Position numbers and translations under genes: made by a program
Notes under the pieces: model-generated
What the model was told of the DNA's origin: nothing
Databases searched by the model: none
Seen by the model: only the letters and a program-made list of their open reading frames with translations
DNA from: Thermoanaerobaculum aquaticum
GTDB taxonomy: Bacteria; Acidobacteriota; Thermoanaerobaculia; Thermoanaerobaculales; Thermoanaerobaculaceae
Reading direction: 5' to 3'
DNA: 64,000 nucleotides
Assembly (NCBI RefSeq): GCF_000687145.1
Contig: NZ_JMFG01000023.1
Span: 78,310 to 142,309, forward strand
In this document: in pieces, positions 1,614 to 40,650 of the stretch
How the letters are laid out: every line of letters begins with the position of its first letter
Position numbering within the stretch: the first letter of the stretch is position 1

Positions 1614-3715
1614 GGCTCACCCCCGGGGATGCGCACCACCGCGCGCACCCCCCCACCCTCCCGGGGCTCCAAGCGCACCGTGCCGCCATGGTCGGTCACG
1701 ATGCGCAACACCACCGCCAGCCCCACCCCGGAGCCCCGACCCTTGGAGGAAAAGAACGGCTGGAACAAGAGCTCTGGGTCCTCCACCGGCAACCCCGGCC
1801 CGCGGTCCAGCACCTCCAGAACCATCTCCTCCCCTTCCCAAAAGGCCCGCACCACCACCTCCCCCGGTGGGGTGGATGCCTCCAGGGCGTTGTCCAGGAG
1901 GTTCACCACCACCTGCCGGAAGAGGTCGCGGTCCAGCCACACCCGGCGCTGGGCAAGGGATGCCTCCAGCTTCACCTCCACGCCCGGCTTGACCCCCTGG
2001 TAAAGACGCACCACCTGCTGGAGGAACTCCTCCCCATCCACCGGCCGACGCTGCACCGGCGGCAGCTTGGCGTAGCGGGAAAAAGCGTCCAAAAGCTCCT
2101 GCATGGAGCGCACGTGGTCCACGATGGCACGGCAGCCGGCCGGGATCACCTCCCCCAGGTCATTGCGGTTCTGGGCAAAATGGCGGGCAATCCGCTCGGC
2201 CGCCAGACGAATGGGGGTGAGGGGGTTCTTGATTTGATGGGCAATTTGCCTGGCCACCTCGCTCCAAGCCGCTTGCCGCTGGGCCCGCAGCAGCTGGGTG
2301 ATGTCCTCCAAAGCCACCACCCAACCGGAAACCTCCGGCCCTCGCCCCAAAGCCACCACCGTCACCTCCAGGTGCTTGGGGGCCCCTCCGGGGTAGAGGG
2401 TCAAGGAGCTGCGGTAGCCGGAAGCGGCGGAGCTTATGACCTCCACCAGCCGCCCCAGGCCATGGTCGGCGAGCTTTGCCAGCGGAACGCTTCCCTCACA
2501 CAGGGCCGGCAAGCCCAGCATGGCCGCCGCCGCGGGGTTCCCGCGCACCGCGCTTCTCTCCCGATCCAGCCACAGGATGCCGGCGCGAATGGCCCCCAGC
2601 ACCGCATCCAAACGGGCCACGGTGGCCCGCAGCTCCTGCTCCTGGGCCCTGAGCCGGCGCACCATGGAGTTGAAGGAAGCCACCAGCAGCGCCACCTCGT
2701 CTTCCCCCGGTACCGGCACCTCGGCCAGCTCCGCCCCCTCAGCCACCGCTGCGGTGGTGGCTGCCAAAGCCATCAAAGGCTCGGTAAAGGAGCGGGAAAG
2801 GTAAAGCCCCGTCCATACCGCGGCAAAGACCACCACGAGGGCGATGCCGCCAAAGGAAAGCACCAAGGTGGCGGTAATGGCCGGCCGTTGCAGCTTGAGC
2901 GCCTGGTACGAGGCAGCCGCCTGCGCCAGCCGCGCCTGGGCGGCGGTAACGTCCTCGCGCCAGACCTCCCCGCAAACCACTACGGCCCCGTCGCCCAGCG
3001 GCACCCACGCCCGCACCACCAAAACCCGGGACACCCGGTCCACCCGGGTGCCGGCATGGCTCAGCTCGGAAGCCGTCAGGGAGGGCAACCGCAACGCCGC
3101 CGTGCGCATGGGCTCCAAAAGCTCCACCACCGGACCGTTTTCCCCAAACAAAGCCGAAAGGTGGTTTTTCCCGGAAAAGTGCAGCCGCTCCAGCTCGGCC
3201 GCCCGCCGTCGCGGCTCCACCGCCGAAAGGTGTGCGGCCATGGCTTGGGCGCACCGCAAGCTCCGCTCTTCGCTTTCCCGCCGCACCCCTTCCGCCAGAG
3301 AAGCGCCCGCCTGCACCACCGCTTCCACCGGCGCCGAAAACCAGGAGGAAGCCAGGTGGGAGAAAAGCGATGTGGCTAAAAGCGAGATCAACACCGCCGG
3401 CACCAGGATCAACAGCAGGTAGGAGACCAAAAGCTTCATGCGAAAGCGGGAGCCAATGATCCCCAGCCGTCGCTCCACGAAAAGCTTGAAAACGGAGCGC
3501 AGGAGCACGAAAAGCACCACCACCATGAGGGTGAGGTCGAAGAGCGTGAGCAGGAACACCAAAAGGCGGTTGGTGAGCTCTTCGGCAGGGACCTCCCGCA
3601 GCCGGGCAATGAGGGCGTACAGCGCGGCCCCCAGGGCCACAAGCACCAGGTACACACCCAAGAGAAAACGGCCCTGCCGCCGGAGGCGCAGCCAGGAGCG
3701 GCGCCAGGACCTCAT
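1610..3715 (-). CDS. ntrY: NtrY-like membrane sensor histidine kinase
   Basis: This 701-residue kinase has several N-terminal membrane segments (three in roughly the first 120 residues) and a further one near 300, flanking an extracytoplasmic region. Then come a HAMP linker (about 310-365), a PAS-like region, and the catalytic core. The H-box is AHQIKNPLTPIRLAAERI, the N-box NLLDNALEAS, and the G boxes DRGPGLP and GSGVGLAVV. Length and order match NtrY. Its start overlaps the stop of the DUF4390 gene by ATGA, and its stop overlaps the response-regulator start. It should autophosphorylate and pass phosphate to the NtrX-like regulator. Co-transcription with lpxC suggests envelope sensing, which is inference. 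Confidence 0.9.
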   Translation of the reverse strand: MRSWRRSWLRLRRQGRFLLGVYLVLVALGAALYALIARLREVPAEELTNRLLVFLLTLFDLTLMVVVLFVLLRSVFKLFVERRLGIIGSRFRMKLLVSYLLLILVPAVLISLLATSLFSHLASSWFSAPVEAVVQAGASLAEGVRRESEERSLRCAQAMAAHLSAVEPRRRAAELERLHFSGKNHLSALFGENGPVVELLEPMRTAALRLPSLTASELSHAGTRVDRVSRVLVVRAWVPLGDGAVVVCGEVWREDVTAAQARLAQAAASYQALKLQRPAITATLVLSFGGIALVVVFAAVWTGLYLSRSFTEPLMALAATTAAVAEGAELAEVPVPGEDEVALLVASFNSMVRRLRAQEQELRATVARLDAVLGAIRAGILWLDRERSAVRGNPAAAAMLGLPALCEGSVPLAKLADHGLGRLVEVISSAASGYRSSLTLYPGGAPKHLEVTVVALGRGPEVSGWVVALEDITQLLRAQRQAAWSEVARQIAHQIKNPLTPIRLAAERIARHFAQNRNDLGEVIPAGCRAIVDHVRSMQELLDAFSRYAKLPPVQRRPVDGEEFLQQVVRLYQGVKPGVEVKLEASLAQRRVWLDRDLFRQVVVNLLDNALEASTPPGEVVVRAFWEGEEMVLEVLDRGPGLPVEDPELLFQPFFSSKGRGSGVGLAVVLRIVTDHGGTVRLEPREGGGVRAVVRIPGGEP

Positions 3716-31170: not shown

Positions 31171-31189
31171 CTGCAACTCTTTCTGTGGG

Positions 31190-31300
31190 ACCCACGCGAA
31201 AAATGTGGGACCCGCGCTCCGTCGCGGGTCTTTTTTTCTGTTTGCCGCCGCGGAGCGGCGGCCCCACATTTTCCTTGGCGGCCCCACATTTTCCTTGGCA
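31190..31300. repeat. GGA-loop hairpin repeats and a 20-bp tandem repeat
   Basis: Two hairpins with 8-bp arms share a purine-rich loop and a CCCACATT tail. On the plus strand, GCCGCCGC-GGA-GCGGCGGC at 31244-31262 is followed by CCCACATTTTCC. On the minus strand, GACCCGCG-ACGGAG-CGCGGGTC at 31230-31209 is followed by CCACATTTTT. The unit GCCCCACATTTTCCTTGGCG occurs twice in tandem (31261-31300, one mismatch). Confidence 0.75.
31209..31237 (+). terminator. Intrinsic terminator
   Basis: GACCCGCG (31209-31216) pairs with CGCGGGTC (31223-31230), followed at once by seven T residues. It ends the dehydrogenase transcript. Read on the minus strand the same hairpin is a member of the GGA-loop repeat family described below. 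Confidence 0.8.
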
Positions 31301-37316: not shown

Positions 37317-37407
37317 CAACGGTTTGCCAGCGGTCACGAAAAAGACTCCGGGGAGATGAAGGGATACGGCAGAGCCTGACGCCGCCAGCTGATGCATGCG
37401 CGGAGCA

Positions 37408-37680
37408 GGAAAAACGCGCGCGGAGCGGGAAGGACGCACGCCCGGCGGGCGTGCCCCACATTGTTCCCTCCTATGTGGGGCAAGCACGACGTGCTTGCAT
37501 AAAAGAAGGAACATGACCAAGCTCGCTGCGGGAAAAACGCGCGCGGAGCGGGAAGGACGCACGCCCGGCGGGCGTGCCCCACATTGTTCCCTCCTATGTG
37601 GGGCAAGCACGACGTGCTTGCAGAAAACAAGCGAAGCGAACAAGCTCGGAGCCGCGACGACGCGCGCGCGGAGCGCGCGC
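37408..37680. repeat. Two identical 92-bp direct repeats with covarying-stem hairpins
   Basis: Positions 37408-37499 and 37531-37622 are identical, separated by 31 bp. Each copy holds an 8-bp-arm hairpin GCACGCCC-GGC-GGGCGTGC followed by CCCACATT, a CCCCACA/TGTGGGG pair, and GCAAGCAC-GAC-GTGCTTGC. A further hairpin, GCGCGCGC-GGA-GCGCGCGC at 37662-37680, is followed by CCCCACG. The open frames that cross these repeats are just repeat translated, not genes. Only two full copies and no unique spacers exclude a CRISPR array. Confidence 0.85.
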
Positions 37681-37702
37681 CCCACGGCTGCCCCCGAAAG
37701 CC

Positions 37703-38299
37703 TTACTCCTTCTTGGGAGCCGGGAAGTACTTTTCCAGGCAATCCGGACAGAGGCCGTGGCTAAAGTCGGCCTCCGAGTGCTCGCGGATGTACGCCTCCA
37801 GCTGCTGCCAGGAATCCGCATCAATCCGGACCCGCTTGCAGGATGCACAAATGGGGATAATCCCTTTCAGCTGCCGCATTTCGCTCTGCGCCCTCAAAAG
37901 CTCGGCCAGGAGCTGTTCCCGCTCGAGTTCCGCCGTTTTCCGCCGGTGGATGTCCACATGGGCACCCAACGCCCGCAAGCCTCGCCCGGAAGCGTCTCTC
38001 TCCACCACCCGACCCCAGTTGAGAATCCATTTGTAATCGCCGGATTTGGTTCGCAGCCGGTGCTCTACCTCGAACTCCGGGCTTTCCCCGACCTGGTGCC
38101 GGTACGCCGCTTCATCCACCGCCGGCAGGTCCTCGGGGTGGATCAGCGCCCGCCACGCCTCGCTGGTGGGAGGGATTTCCTCAGGCTCGTAGCCCAGCAT
38201 GCGCGCCCATTCGGGGGTACGGATGACCTTACCGGTGACCAAATTGTGGTCCCACAGCCCCACCCCCGAGACCTCCAGCGCTCGCCCCCACAGAGACAT
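37703..38299 (-). CDS. PAS-domain protein with C-terminal CxxC/CxxC motif
   Basis: The 198-residue protein has one PAS fold with its PAC-like end (about 1-125: GVGLWDHNLVTGKVIRTPEW, then EHRLRTKSGDYKWILNWGRV). A short coiled coil (about 128-150) precedes a tail with paired cysteines, CASC and CPDC about 35 residues apart, probably a small metal-binding site. Such tails occur on bacterial PAS signalling proteins. There is no kinase, GGDEF or DNA-binding domain, so its output is unknown. ATG 38299 is chosen because it begins at the PAS domain; upstream in-frame sequence looks non-coding. The Shine-Dalgarno is weak. Confidence 0.7.
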   Translation of the reverse strand: MSLWGRALEVSGVGLWDHNLVTGKVIRTPEWARMLGYEPEEIPPTSEAWRALIHPEDLPAVDEAAYRHQVGESPEFEVEHRLRTKSGDYKWILNWGRVVERDASGRGLRALGAHVDIHRRKTAELEREQLLAELLRAQSEMRQLKGIIPICASCKRVRIDADSWQQLEAYIREHSEADFSHGLCPDCLEKYFPAPKKE

Positions 38300-38568
38300 G
38301 AACCCGCCAGTTGGCGTTGGTCTGTGAAGGAAAGGAAGCAACCGAACGAAAAAGCTCGTTGACCCCAACCACATCTCGTTTAAGGTTAGCACACATCCAG
38401 ACCCGGTTTGCAAGCACCACGCCGACACCCGCGGCCCAGTGGCCCTCCGCCCCTCACCGTACGACAACACCCGGCGTTCAGCGCAACTGACCCCGCTCGG
38501 TGCTGCCCGCTTGCAGACAGCGGGCAACTCCCGAGCAGCTCGCCTCAGGTAGGTGCCCGATCCCGAGT

Positions 38569-40650
38569 CTAGGCTTCCCAAGGCAGGCGGTTGACCGCCT
38601 TCCCTGTGGCCGCCAGGATGGCGTTGGCCACCGCCGGAGCCAGCGGCGGCACCCCCGGCTCCCCCACCCCTCCCGGTGGCTCCTCGCTGGGCACGATGTG
38701 CACTTCCACCCTGGGCATCTCGTGAAAGCGCAGGGGTTCGTAGCGGTCGAAGTTGGTTTCCAGCACCTTGCCGCCTTCCACCGTGATGCGGCCGCGCAAA
38801 AAGGCAGAAAGCCCAAAAACCACCGCGCTCACCAGCTGCTGTTCCACCAGCCGCGGGTTAATCGCCCGGCCGCAGTGGATGGCCACCACCACCCGCTCCA
38901 CCTTGAGCTTCTCTTTCCGCACCGAGACCTCCGCCACCTCCGCCACGTGGGAGCCGAAGGAGCTGCAGCAGGCCACGCCTCGACCCCAGCCCGCGGGCAG
39001 GGGCTTGCCCCAACCTGCCTTCTCGCCGGCCAGCCGCAGCGCGGCCTTCAGCGGTCCCTCGGGGAGAAGCTTGAGGCGCAACTGGTAAGGATCCGCCTTG
39101 AGTTCCCGCGCCACCAGGTCAAAAAAGTGCTCGGAGGCAAAGGGGTTTTGCGAGGCGTATACCGAACGCCACGCCCCCAGCGGCACCGGCACCGGCAGCA
39201 GGGTCTGCTCCAAAAGCCAGTGGGGAATGGCGTAGGGCGGCTCGGCCCCTTCCAACGCCCCGCGATCCACCTGCCCCGCCCGGGAAGGGTTGCGCTGCTG
39301 GCCAATGGAGCAGGTCACCTGGTGGTGCCGCCAGGCCAGGATTTGCTTGCCGGCAATAGCAGCTTGCAGGAAATGCACCGAAGGCGGCCGGTAAAAGTCG
39401 TGGGTCATGTCGTCTTCCCGCGTCCACAAAAGCTGCACCGGCACCGTAAAGTGCTTGGCCACCTCCACCGCTTCGGCCACGAAATCCGAGGAAAGCCTCC
39501 GCCCAAAACCGCCGCCCAAGAACGTCACGTGCAGCGTCACCTTTTCCACCGGCAGCCCCGCCACCCGCGCCGCTTCCTGCCGGGCGGGCATGGGCACCTG
39601 GGTGGGCGCCCAAACCTCCAGGCCGCCATCGTGGAACCAGGCGGTGGCGTTTTGCGGCTCCATGGGCGCGTGAGCCAAAAAGGGCAGGGAAAAGCTTGCC
39701 TCCAGCTTCCGTGCCCCCGCCGGCAGCAGAAAACCCTCACCGTGCTTGGCCGCTTCCTTCCCCGGTTTAGGGGCCAGCTCCTCCATTGTGGTCAACAAAG
39801 CCTTGCTGGAAAAGCTGGCCGCTTCCCCGGGTTCCCACACCACCTTCAGCGCCGCCCGGCCCTTGAGCGCTGCCCAGGTGTCCCGGGCCACCACCGCCAC
39901 CCCGGAGCTCACCGGCACCACCTTCACCACCCCTTCCACCTGCAGTGCCGGCTTCTCCTCGAAGCTCACCAGCCTGGCCCCAAACACCTCAGGGCGGGCC
40001 ACCACCGCGAAAAGCATCCCGGGAAGACGCACGTCGCAACCAAAGGTGGCTTTGCCGGTGAGCTTGGCCCGGGCATCCACACGGGGCAGAGGCTTACCAA
40101 TGAAATCGAAGTCTTTGGGGTCCTTAAGCCGCGGGTTTTGCGGCACCGGCAGCTTGGCCGCCTCCGCCACCAGCTCCCGAAACGCCAAACTCGAGCCGGT
40201 TTTGGGATCCAGCACCTTCCCGCCTCTGGCGATGAGCGTCTCCGCCGGCACACCCCACCGCTTGGCCGCCGCCTGCACCAGCATCTCCCGCGCCGCCGCT
40301 CCCGCCTTGCGCAGCTCCTCAAACTGCGTGCGCACCGCCGTGGAGCCACCGGTGTTCTGGTTGCCAAACTTGGCATCGGCGTCCGCTTGCACCGCTTCCA
40401 CCTGGCTCCAATCCGCCCCCAGCTCATCGGCAATGATTTGCGCAAGACCGGTGAGCACCCCCTGTCCCATCTCCGACTTGTTCACCCAGATGGTGACGCG
40501 GCCGTCGGTCCCCACCCGCACGAAGGGGTTGGGTTGCAGGGCTGCCGGCTCCTCCGCCAGGGCCGGAAAGACGCGGCCCAGCACCAGGCCCCCTCCCACC
40601 ATCATCGAAAGGTTCAAAAGCTCCCGCCGGGACAACCCCTGGCCTTTCAT
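38569..40650 (-). CDS. Molybdopterin-binding oxidoreductase large subunit, IorB-like
   Basis: The 693-residue subunit belongs to the xanthine-dehydrogenase family. A twin-arginine signal (LSRRELLNLSMMVGGGLVLG) points to export as a folded, cofactor-loaded enzyme. Family blocks include NKSEMGQGVLTGLAQIIADE near residue 57, HAPMEPQNATAW, and AWRSVYASQNPFASEHFFD. The arrangement matches the beta subunit of isoquinoline 1-oxidoreductase-type enzymes, which hydroxylate N-heterocycles or oxidise aldehydes. The substrate is unknown. It starts 3 bp after the iorA-like stop, forming a two-gene operon. Electrons would pass to the 2Fe-2S subunit and on to a cytochrome not seen here. Confidence 0.88.
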   Translation of the reverse strand: MKGQGLSRRELLNLSMMVGGGLVLGRVFPALAEEPAALQPNPFVRVGTDGRVTIWVNKSEMGQGVLTGLAQIIADELGADWSQVEAVQADADAKFGNQNTGGSTAVRTQFEELRKAGAAAREMLVQAAAKRWGVPAETLIARGGKVLDPKTGSSLAFRELVAEAAKLPVPQNPRLKDPKDFDFIGKPLPRVDARAKLTGKATFGCDVRLPGMLFAVVARPEVFGARLVSFEEKPALQVEGVVKVVPVSSGVAVVARDTWAALKGRAALKVVWEPGEAASFSSKALLTTMEELAPKPGKEAAKHGEGFLLPAGARKLEASFSLPFLAHAPMEPQNATAWFHDGGLEVWAPTQVPMPARQEAARVAGLPVEKVTLHVTFLGGGFGRRLSSDFVAEAVEVAKHFTVPVQLLWTREDDMTHDFYRPPSVHFLQAAIAGKQILAWRHHQVTCSIGQQRNPSRAGQVDRGALEGAEPPYAIPHWLLEQTLLPVPVPLGAWRSVYASQNPFASEHFFDLVARELKADPYQLRLKLLPEGPLKAALRLAGEKAGWGKPLPAGWGRGVACCSSFGSHVAEVAEVSVRKEKLKVERVVVAIHCGRAINPRLVEQQLVSAVVFGLSAFLRGRITVEGGKVLETNFDRYEPLRFHEMPRVEVHIVPSEEPPGGVGEPGVPPLAPAVANAILAATGKAVNRLPWEA

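Follow-up and report, generated by a model that had tools for sequence, protein, structure and literature searches.

The hairpins described here lie in a stretch of 64,000 nucleotides of the Thermoanaerobaculum aquaticum genome (the window, to which all positions given without a contig refer). We read them, with a probability of roughly 0.9, as REP units that mostly stand as inverted pairs (REPINs or BIME-like dimers) and form the non-autonomous parts of a REPtron with one RAYT. This is a small selfish element of known type in a lineage without an earlier description that we could find: the open-access literature gave none for Thermoanaerobaculum. Three features are unusual, namely the natural GTGG tag, the turnover of stems under a constant tag, loop, and stem length, and the composition of tags-outside dimers, which always combine unlike stems. 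With this finding, a thermophilic acidobacterium from a hot spring joins the known hosts of REPIN/RAYT systems, here with a natural GTGG tag; otherwise the element type is ordinary.

Hairpin units in the window

All units share one anatomy: an 8-bp hairpin with a loop of the TCC type, preceded at a distance of 0-1 nt by the 5' tag GTGG(G). A sequence-only reading of the window had reported four hairpins with 8-bp arms and a CCCAC tail in two intergenic gaps. When the window sequence was re-read, hairpins were found at each of those positions, although the number rose to seven, and the tail proved to be the reverse complement of the 5' tag TGTGGG. The seven units in which GTGGG abuts a perfect hairpin of 7 bp or more all fall in these two gaps, as compared with a mean of 0.43 and a maximum of 2 in 60 dinucleotide shuffles of the window. 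The reversed tag, GGGTG, was found next to a perfect hairpin 0 times in the window scan. The features are as follows.

31184 to 31203, plus strand: half-REP TGTGGGACCCACGCGAAAAA, tag and 5' arm without a 3' arm; the next tag follows 20 bp downstream
31204 to 31268, no strand assigned: HH (tags outside) REP dimer, that is, a REPIN; covariance-model match G000:C23:109511-109579, E 1.3e-23
31204 to 31230, plus strand: A-type REP, tag TGTGG and hairpin 31209-31230, GACCCGCG-CTCCGT-CGCGGGTC
31231 to 31243, no strand assigned: 13-nt linker TTTTTTTCTGTTT, which renders the A hairpin terminator-like on the plus strand
31244 to 31268, minus strand: G-type REP, hairpin 31244-31262, GCCGCCGC-TCC-GCGGCGGC, and tag TGTGGG at 31263-31268
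31269 to 31288, minus strand: half-REP TGTGGGGCCGCCAAGGAAAA, with 20-bp spacing
37395 to 37640, no strand assigned: tandem duplication of 123 bp with 89% identity between its copies (37395-37517 and 37518-37640), each of which has one TT (tags inside) dimer
37436 to 37460, minus strand: REP, tag TGTGGG and hairpin 37436-37454, GCACGCCC-GCC-GGGCGTGC
37474 to 37498, plus strand: REP, tag TGTGGG and hairpin 37480-37498, GCAAGCAC-GAC-GTGCTTGC
37559 to 37583, minus strand: REP, second GCACGCCC-GCC copy, hairpin 37559-37577
37597 to 37621, plus strand: REP, second GCAAGCAC-GAC copy, hairpin 37603-37621
37662 to 37685, minus strand: single REP, tag GTGGG and hairpin 37662-37680, GCGCGCGC-TCC-GCGCGCGC

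A repeat family across the genome

The host genome (G000) is a draft assembly of 68 contigs and 2,660,928 bp, in which the pattern GCCCCACATT occurs 25 times as against 4 for its reversed form. A genome-wide covariance model search, as the sequence-only reading had advised, was run with a model (R1) built from an alignment (A1) of fifteen dimers; it returned 52 or more places that do not overlap, at E<=1e-3, a lower bound since 150 candidates were scored. In about 157 kb of fetched host sequence we identified 68 tagged units in 31 clusters, a count that leaves out one discarded automatic match. The tag is GTGG in all 68, the stem measures 8 bp in 59, and the loops are TCCT (22 units), TCC (19), CTCCGT (14), and few others. 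Neither an absence of further copies nor a restriction to terminator positions with random loops was seen; the loops are near constant. The arms had been called unrelated, and this holds within the window. Genome-wide it goes too far, as nearly all units belong to two dominant stem types, GCCGSCGC (G) and GACCYGCG/ACCCGCGC (A), the copies near 37 kb being the exceptions.

Using home-made gene calls, 30 of the 31 clusters lie outside called genes. Because 10 of the 31 adjoin a contig end or lack a called flank, the repeats have probably caused many of the assembly breaks.

The placement of the clusters bears on a first alternative, that the hairpins are intrinsic (bidirectional) terminators which share sequence through local duplication and gene conversion. 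Both window sites are located between convergent genes, as are 10 of the 21 clusters with two called flanks, and on one strand the A hairpin (31207-31232) runs into TTTTTTT. That convergent excess is, however, not significant when set against 6 of 29 window gaps (Fisher p 0.066); four clusters are divergent, and the hairpins near 37 kb are not followed by T runs. Terminators are not characterized by a fixed tag beyond the stem, a fixed loop, tags-outside dimers, or linkage to a RAYT, and we consider this explanation very unlikely. Transcription termination may nevertheless arise as a side effect of the REP units, for example, where an A-type hairpin is joined to a T run.

The RAYT gene

A Y1/RAYT transposase gene, which the sequence-only reading had proposed to look for, is present on contig C13 as an intact ORF of 151 aa (G000:C13:156-611) with REPs on both sides, at 1-75 and 640-835. 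The gene is single-copy, with one match in the host genome. A strict Pfam Y1_Tnp (PF01797) search of the host genome gave no match, and a relaxed search gave a weak one at G000:C13:240-389, between the covariance-model matches C13:1-51 and C13:637-811. The ORF matches NCBIfam NF047646 (REP-associated tyrosine transposase) with an E-value of 1.9e-22 and 79.7 bits, missing the cut-off of 80 by 0.3 bits; its Pfam Y1_Tnp score (21.2 vs 23) is likewise below threshold. The same NCBIfam model is matched by three orthologues and four more distant homologues (best 6.4e-35). E. coli TnpA-REP (4ER8) is the nearest solved structure, at 1.7e-6 by phmmer and 1.1e-15 by profile.

In the protein, DHIH represents the HUH motif and YIVGNP the class-2 tyrosine motif, and the residues H, H, Y, N, and P are invariant across eight homologues. 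At a site where W is conserved in the aligned homologues, the host protein has F. Given this substitution and the two scores below cut-off, activity of the RAYT is not assured. With many more copies in the genome, covarying stems, and a RAYT gene embedded among the copies, the REP-like, RAYT-moved option in the sequence-only reading is supported.

Dimers and their predicted folding

Neighboring units in the host loci are arranged as 20 HH and 12 TT pairs, with no HT. The HH dimers of the host are A+G in 19 of 19, plus one odd pair, with unlike stems in every dimer classified, and those of the congener G002 are A+G in 16 of 16; these counts are not independent, as the copies share descent, yet genomes that differ in their stems follow the unlike-stem rule. 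In G013, G011, G004, and G010, too, the HH dimers have unlike stems.

For the window dimer (31204-31268), the predicted fold is a clover in which the tags are paired and the two hairpins stand inside (DNA parameters, z -5.6), and both strands fold equally. Two identical G-type units placed as a dimer are predicted to form a single long hairpin, at -41.9 kcal/mol. For the dimer as it occurs, the clover comes to -22.7 kcal/mol and the long form to -24.9 kcal/mol, the latter a duplex estimate without loop penalty. Because each tags-outside dimer has two different stems, the clover rather than one long hairpin is predicted, although the preference is slight, as the two forms are close in energy and the preference depends on the loop penalty.

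Tentatively, and at odds that we would set well below even, we suggest that one RAYT serves REPs with almost free stems, reading only the foot GTGG, the 8-bp stem length, and the loop NCC, and that dimers are selected for unlike stems such that the clover is kept and the long hairpin avoided. If this is true, the clover, which earlier work put forward as the REPIN form accessible to transposition, would be an enforced state in this lineage. The unlike-stem rule of tags-outside dimers offers a test of the clover model.

The same dimers might be mistaken for MITEs of a DDE insertion sequence with terminal inverted repeats starting TGTGGG, since the HH dimers are of similar size (63-75 bp) and have 6-8 bp inverted termini, AATGTGGG...CCCACATT. 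Yet those termini amount to 6-8 bp only, and the bodies consist of two independent covarying hairpins; tags also occur inside (in TT dimers) and on single units, and a Y1/RAYT is the only transposase found among the repeats. We regard a MITE origin as highly improbable, more so than terminators.

Distribution among relatives

Among 100 relatives, close RAYT orthologues were found only in G013, G011, and G004, at 47-54% identity. All three carry GTGG-tagged HH dimers whose stems differ from those of the host, and the RAYT of G011 lies between dense arrays of REPs. The congener G001 has no RAYT gene, and the repeats are near-absent there, with covariance-model matches that are weak at most. The congener G002 has a copy number comparable to that of the host, and no RAYT orthologue was found in it; the gene may have been lost, be missing from the draft, or have been replaced.

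At individual loci, the site orthologous to that at 37.4 kb spans 94 bp in G001 as compared with 456 bp in the host, and G002 is without such a repeat. At this site the 37.4-kb copies are absent from both congeners examined, but the genomes are diverged (75-83% identity) and the boundaries are not clean. Upstream of GlnRS, G002 has repeats of its own and G001 has none. A GlnRS contig search returned distant phyla only (best 66% identity), with no close relatives of the host and no usable flanks.

Some further observations were made at these loci. The window gene at 37703-38581 (minus strand), which adjoins the 37.4-kb repeats and appears PAS-domain-like by eye, is present in G001 and was not seen at that place in G002. 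A different RAYT-like gene, of 208 aa, occurs in G002 (L248, G002:C30:31000-35500, positions 1920-2546, minus strand); this Y1 gene was set aside, since the neighboring sequence examined holds no GTGGG repeats of this kind. In G011 (L251), at 1049-1069 and 1408-1428, GTAG is directly followed by a 7-bp hairpin, TTGCCCTCGGAGGGCAA, between two GTGG-tagged hairpins; a GTAG-tagged unit nested in a GTGG dimer is possible. In G021, from another family of the same order (e.g., locus L235), there are 66 weak covariance-model matches, the best at 3.6e-7, which probably represent a separate family of GC-rich hairpin repeats.

Covariation and sequence constancy

The structural covariation that the sequence-only reading had proposed was confirmed, stem changes being compensated. 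Across 21 distinct units, taken from seven genomes within the family, pairing was kept in 98.2% of cells as compared with 77.2% after shuffling, and 30 cells were changed on both sides as compared with 7.6. The covariation score was 0.559 as against 0.141 for shuffled data, and the signal was lost when partners were slid. Among the columns without variation are those of the tag GTGG and of the final C of the loop. The fifth tag base is A in the relative G004 (GTGGA), and the core tag is therefore GTGG.

Although strong covariation and stable folding would suit a structured RNA family (a regulator or small RNA, in trans or as an mRNA element), the functional RNA option of the sequence-only reading is barely credible, as Rfam gave no match, the two strands fold alike, arms turn over between and within genomes, and mobile DNA better accounts for the arrays, the varied arrangement of dimers, the near-absence of the repeats from one congener, and the other stems in relatives.

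Comparison with known systems

REPs, REPINs, GTGG tags, RAYT-flanking arrays, and hetero-dimers (the E. coli Y-Z BIMEs) have all been described already (PMC2817692, PMC3116915, PMC3733652, PMC6006769, PMC8266576). For the Acidobacteria, the main REP survey lists only TIR-flanked transposases (TIRYTs) and no REP-flanked RAYTs (PMC3733652).

In length and motifs, the host RAYT resembles TnpAY1 subclass 2.5, or RAYT group 3, which includes the REPtrons of Stenotrophomonas (Sm) and Marinomonas (Mb) (PMC8266576, PMC6006769). It has 151 aa, as does the subclass median, and shares the DH[hydrophobic]H and YI..NP motifs (PMC6006769). Similarly, the Sm and Mb REPs are short perfect hairpins with the tag 0-1 nt away; foot and stem together make up 12-13 nt here, within the published range of 10-13, and the loop is conserved as it is in Sm and Mb, whose loop bases are required (PMC8266576, PMC6006769). 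The differences are a GTGG rather than a GTAG tag and a TCC/TCCT loop, and, in the protein, YIVGNP rather than YI[VI]ANP and F for the conserved W. In addition, the host phylum is Acidobacteriota, whereas subclass 2.5 is Xanthomonad/Pseudomonad, and the likeness is one of length and motifs only.

The REPINs of Pseudomonas fluorescens SBW25 (PMC3116915) are also predominantly inverted doublets, with tandem clusters, clusters beside the RAYT, and a clover fold. What differs here is that every tags-outside dimer has unlike stems and is predicted to form a clover, not one long hairpin. The BIMEs of E. coli (Y-Z1, Y-Z2) likewise alternate two REP types in inverted order, and TnpA-REP (4ER8) is the closest RAYT of known structure; the E. 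coli REPs, however, exceed those of the host in length, need a bulge, and bear GTAG as their tag, as opposed to perfect 8-bp stems and GTGG (PMC8266576). Natural GTGG tags, a similar stem length, and HH dimers are also known from the GTGG variant of the GTAG super-family (Opitutus terrae GTAG-20; P. fluorescens Pflu1/Pflu2), whose stem and loop sequences differ from those described here (PMC3733652, PMC2817692).

Proposed mechanism

We infer that the host RAYT acts on these REPs and moves them. When a strand is exposed as single-stranded DNA, the RAYT would bind the folded hairpin, recognizing it by the foot (GTGG) and the loop and not by the sequence of the stem. Its tyrosine would then cut beside the hairpin, the strands would be joined, and whole dimers would be copied or transferred into intergenic DNA. 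The steps of strand transfer, like any influence on transcription, are drawn by analogy and should be taken as putative. As the tag, loop, and stem length would be what is read, the stem sequence would be free to drift while still pairing, and a constant tag, loop, and stem length with drifting stems is, by the same analogy, the trace to be expected from such reading.

RAYTs that have been studied do not cleave without the tag, which also helps to determine where they cut; those of group 3 depend on certain loop bases and tolerate more variation in stem sequence (PMC8266576). Mutating GTAG to GTGG moved cleavage to CC (PMC8266576). A natural GTGG case makes this guide rule, by which GTGG shifts cleavage to CC, testable.

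Half-REPs and a second repeat

Extra tag copies outside the complete units of the window, CCCACATT at 31283 and GTGGGACC at 31185, are parts of half-repeats of 20 bp that lack the 3' arm, a feature seen repeatedly. Such tandem half-REPs consist of the tag and 5' arm, often with the loop, and follow one another at intervals of 20-21 bp; in the host the spacing is 20 bp in 18 instances and 21 bp in 5. They also occur on host contigs C10, C20, C17, C6, C13, C3, C16, and C1, and at the G002 loci L209-L220. Possibly, they are the footprint of abortive transposase action or of replication slippage at a hairpin.

A second, partly palindromic repeat of ~100 bp, GCGGGGGGC...GCCCCCCGC, ends in a CCGGCAAAGCCGG-like hairpin and has 10 genome matches (G000:C10:54296-54396, C8:222308-222400, C27:26600-26700, C6:17361-17460, C9:43525-43753, and others). 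It is perhaps a companion element, like the interstitial motifs of E. coli BIMEs; many copies lie beside REP clusters, and it is present in G002 too.
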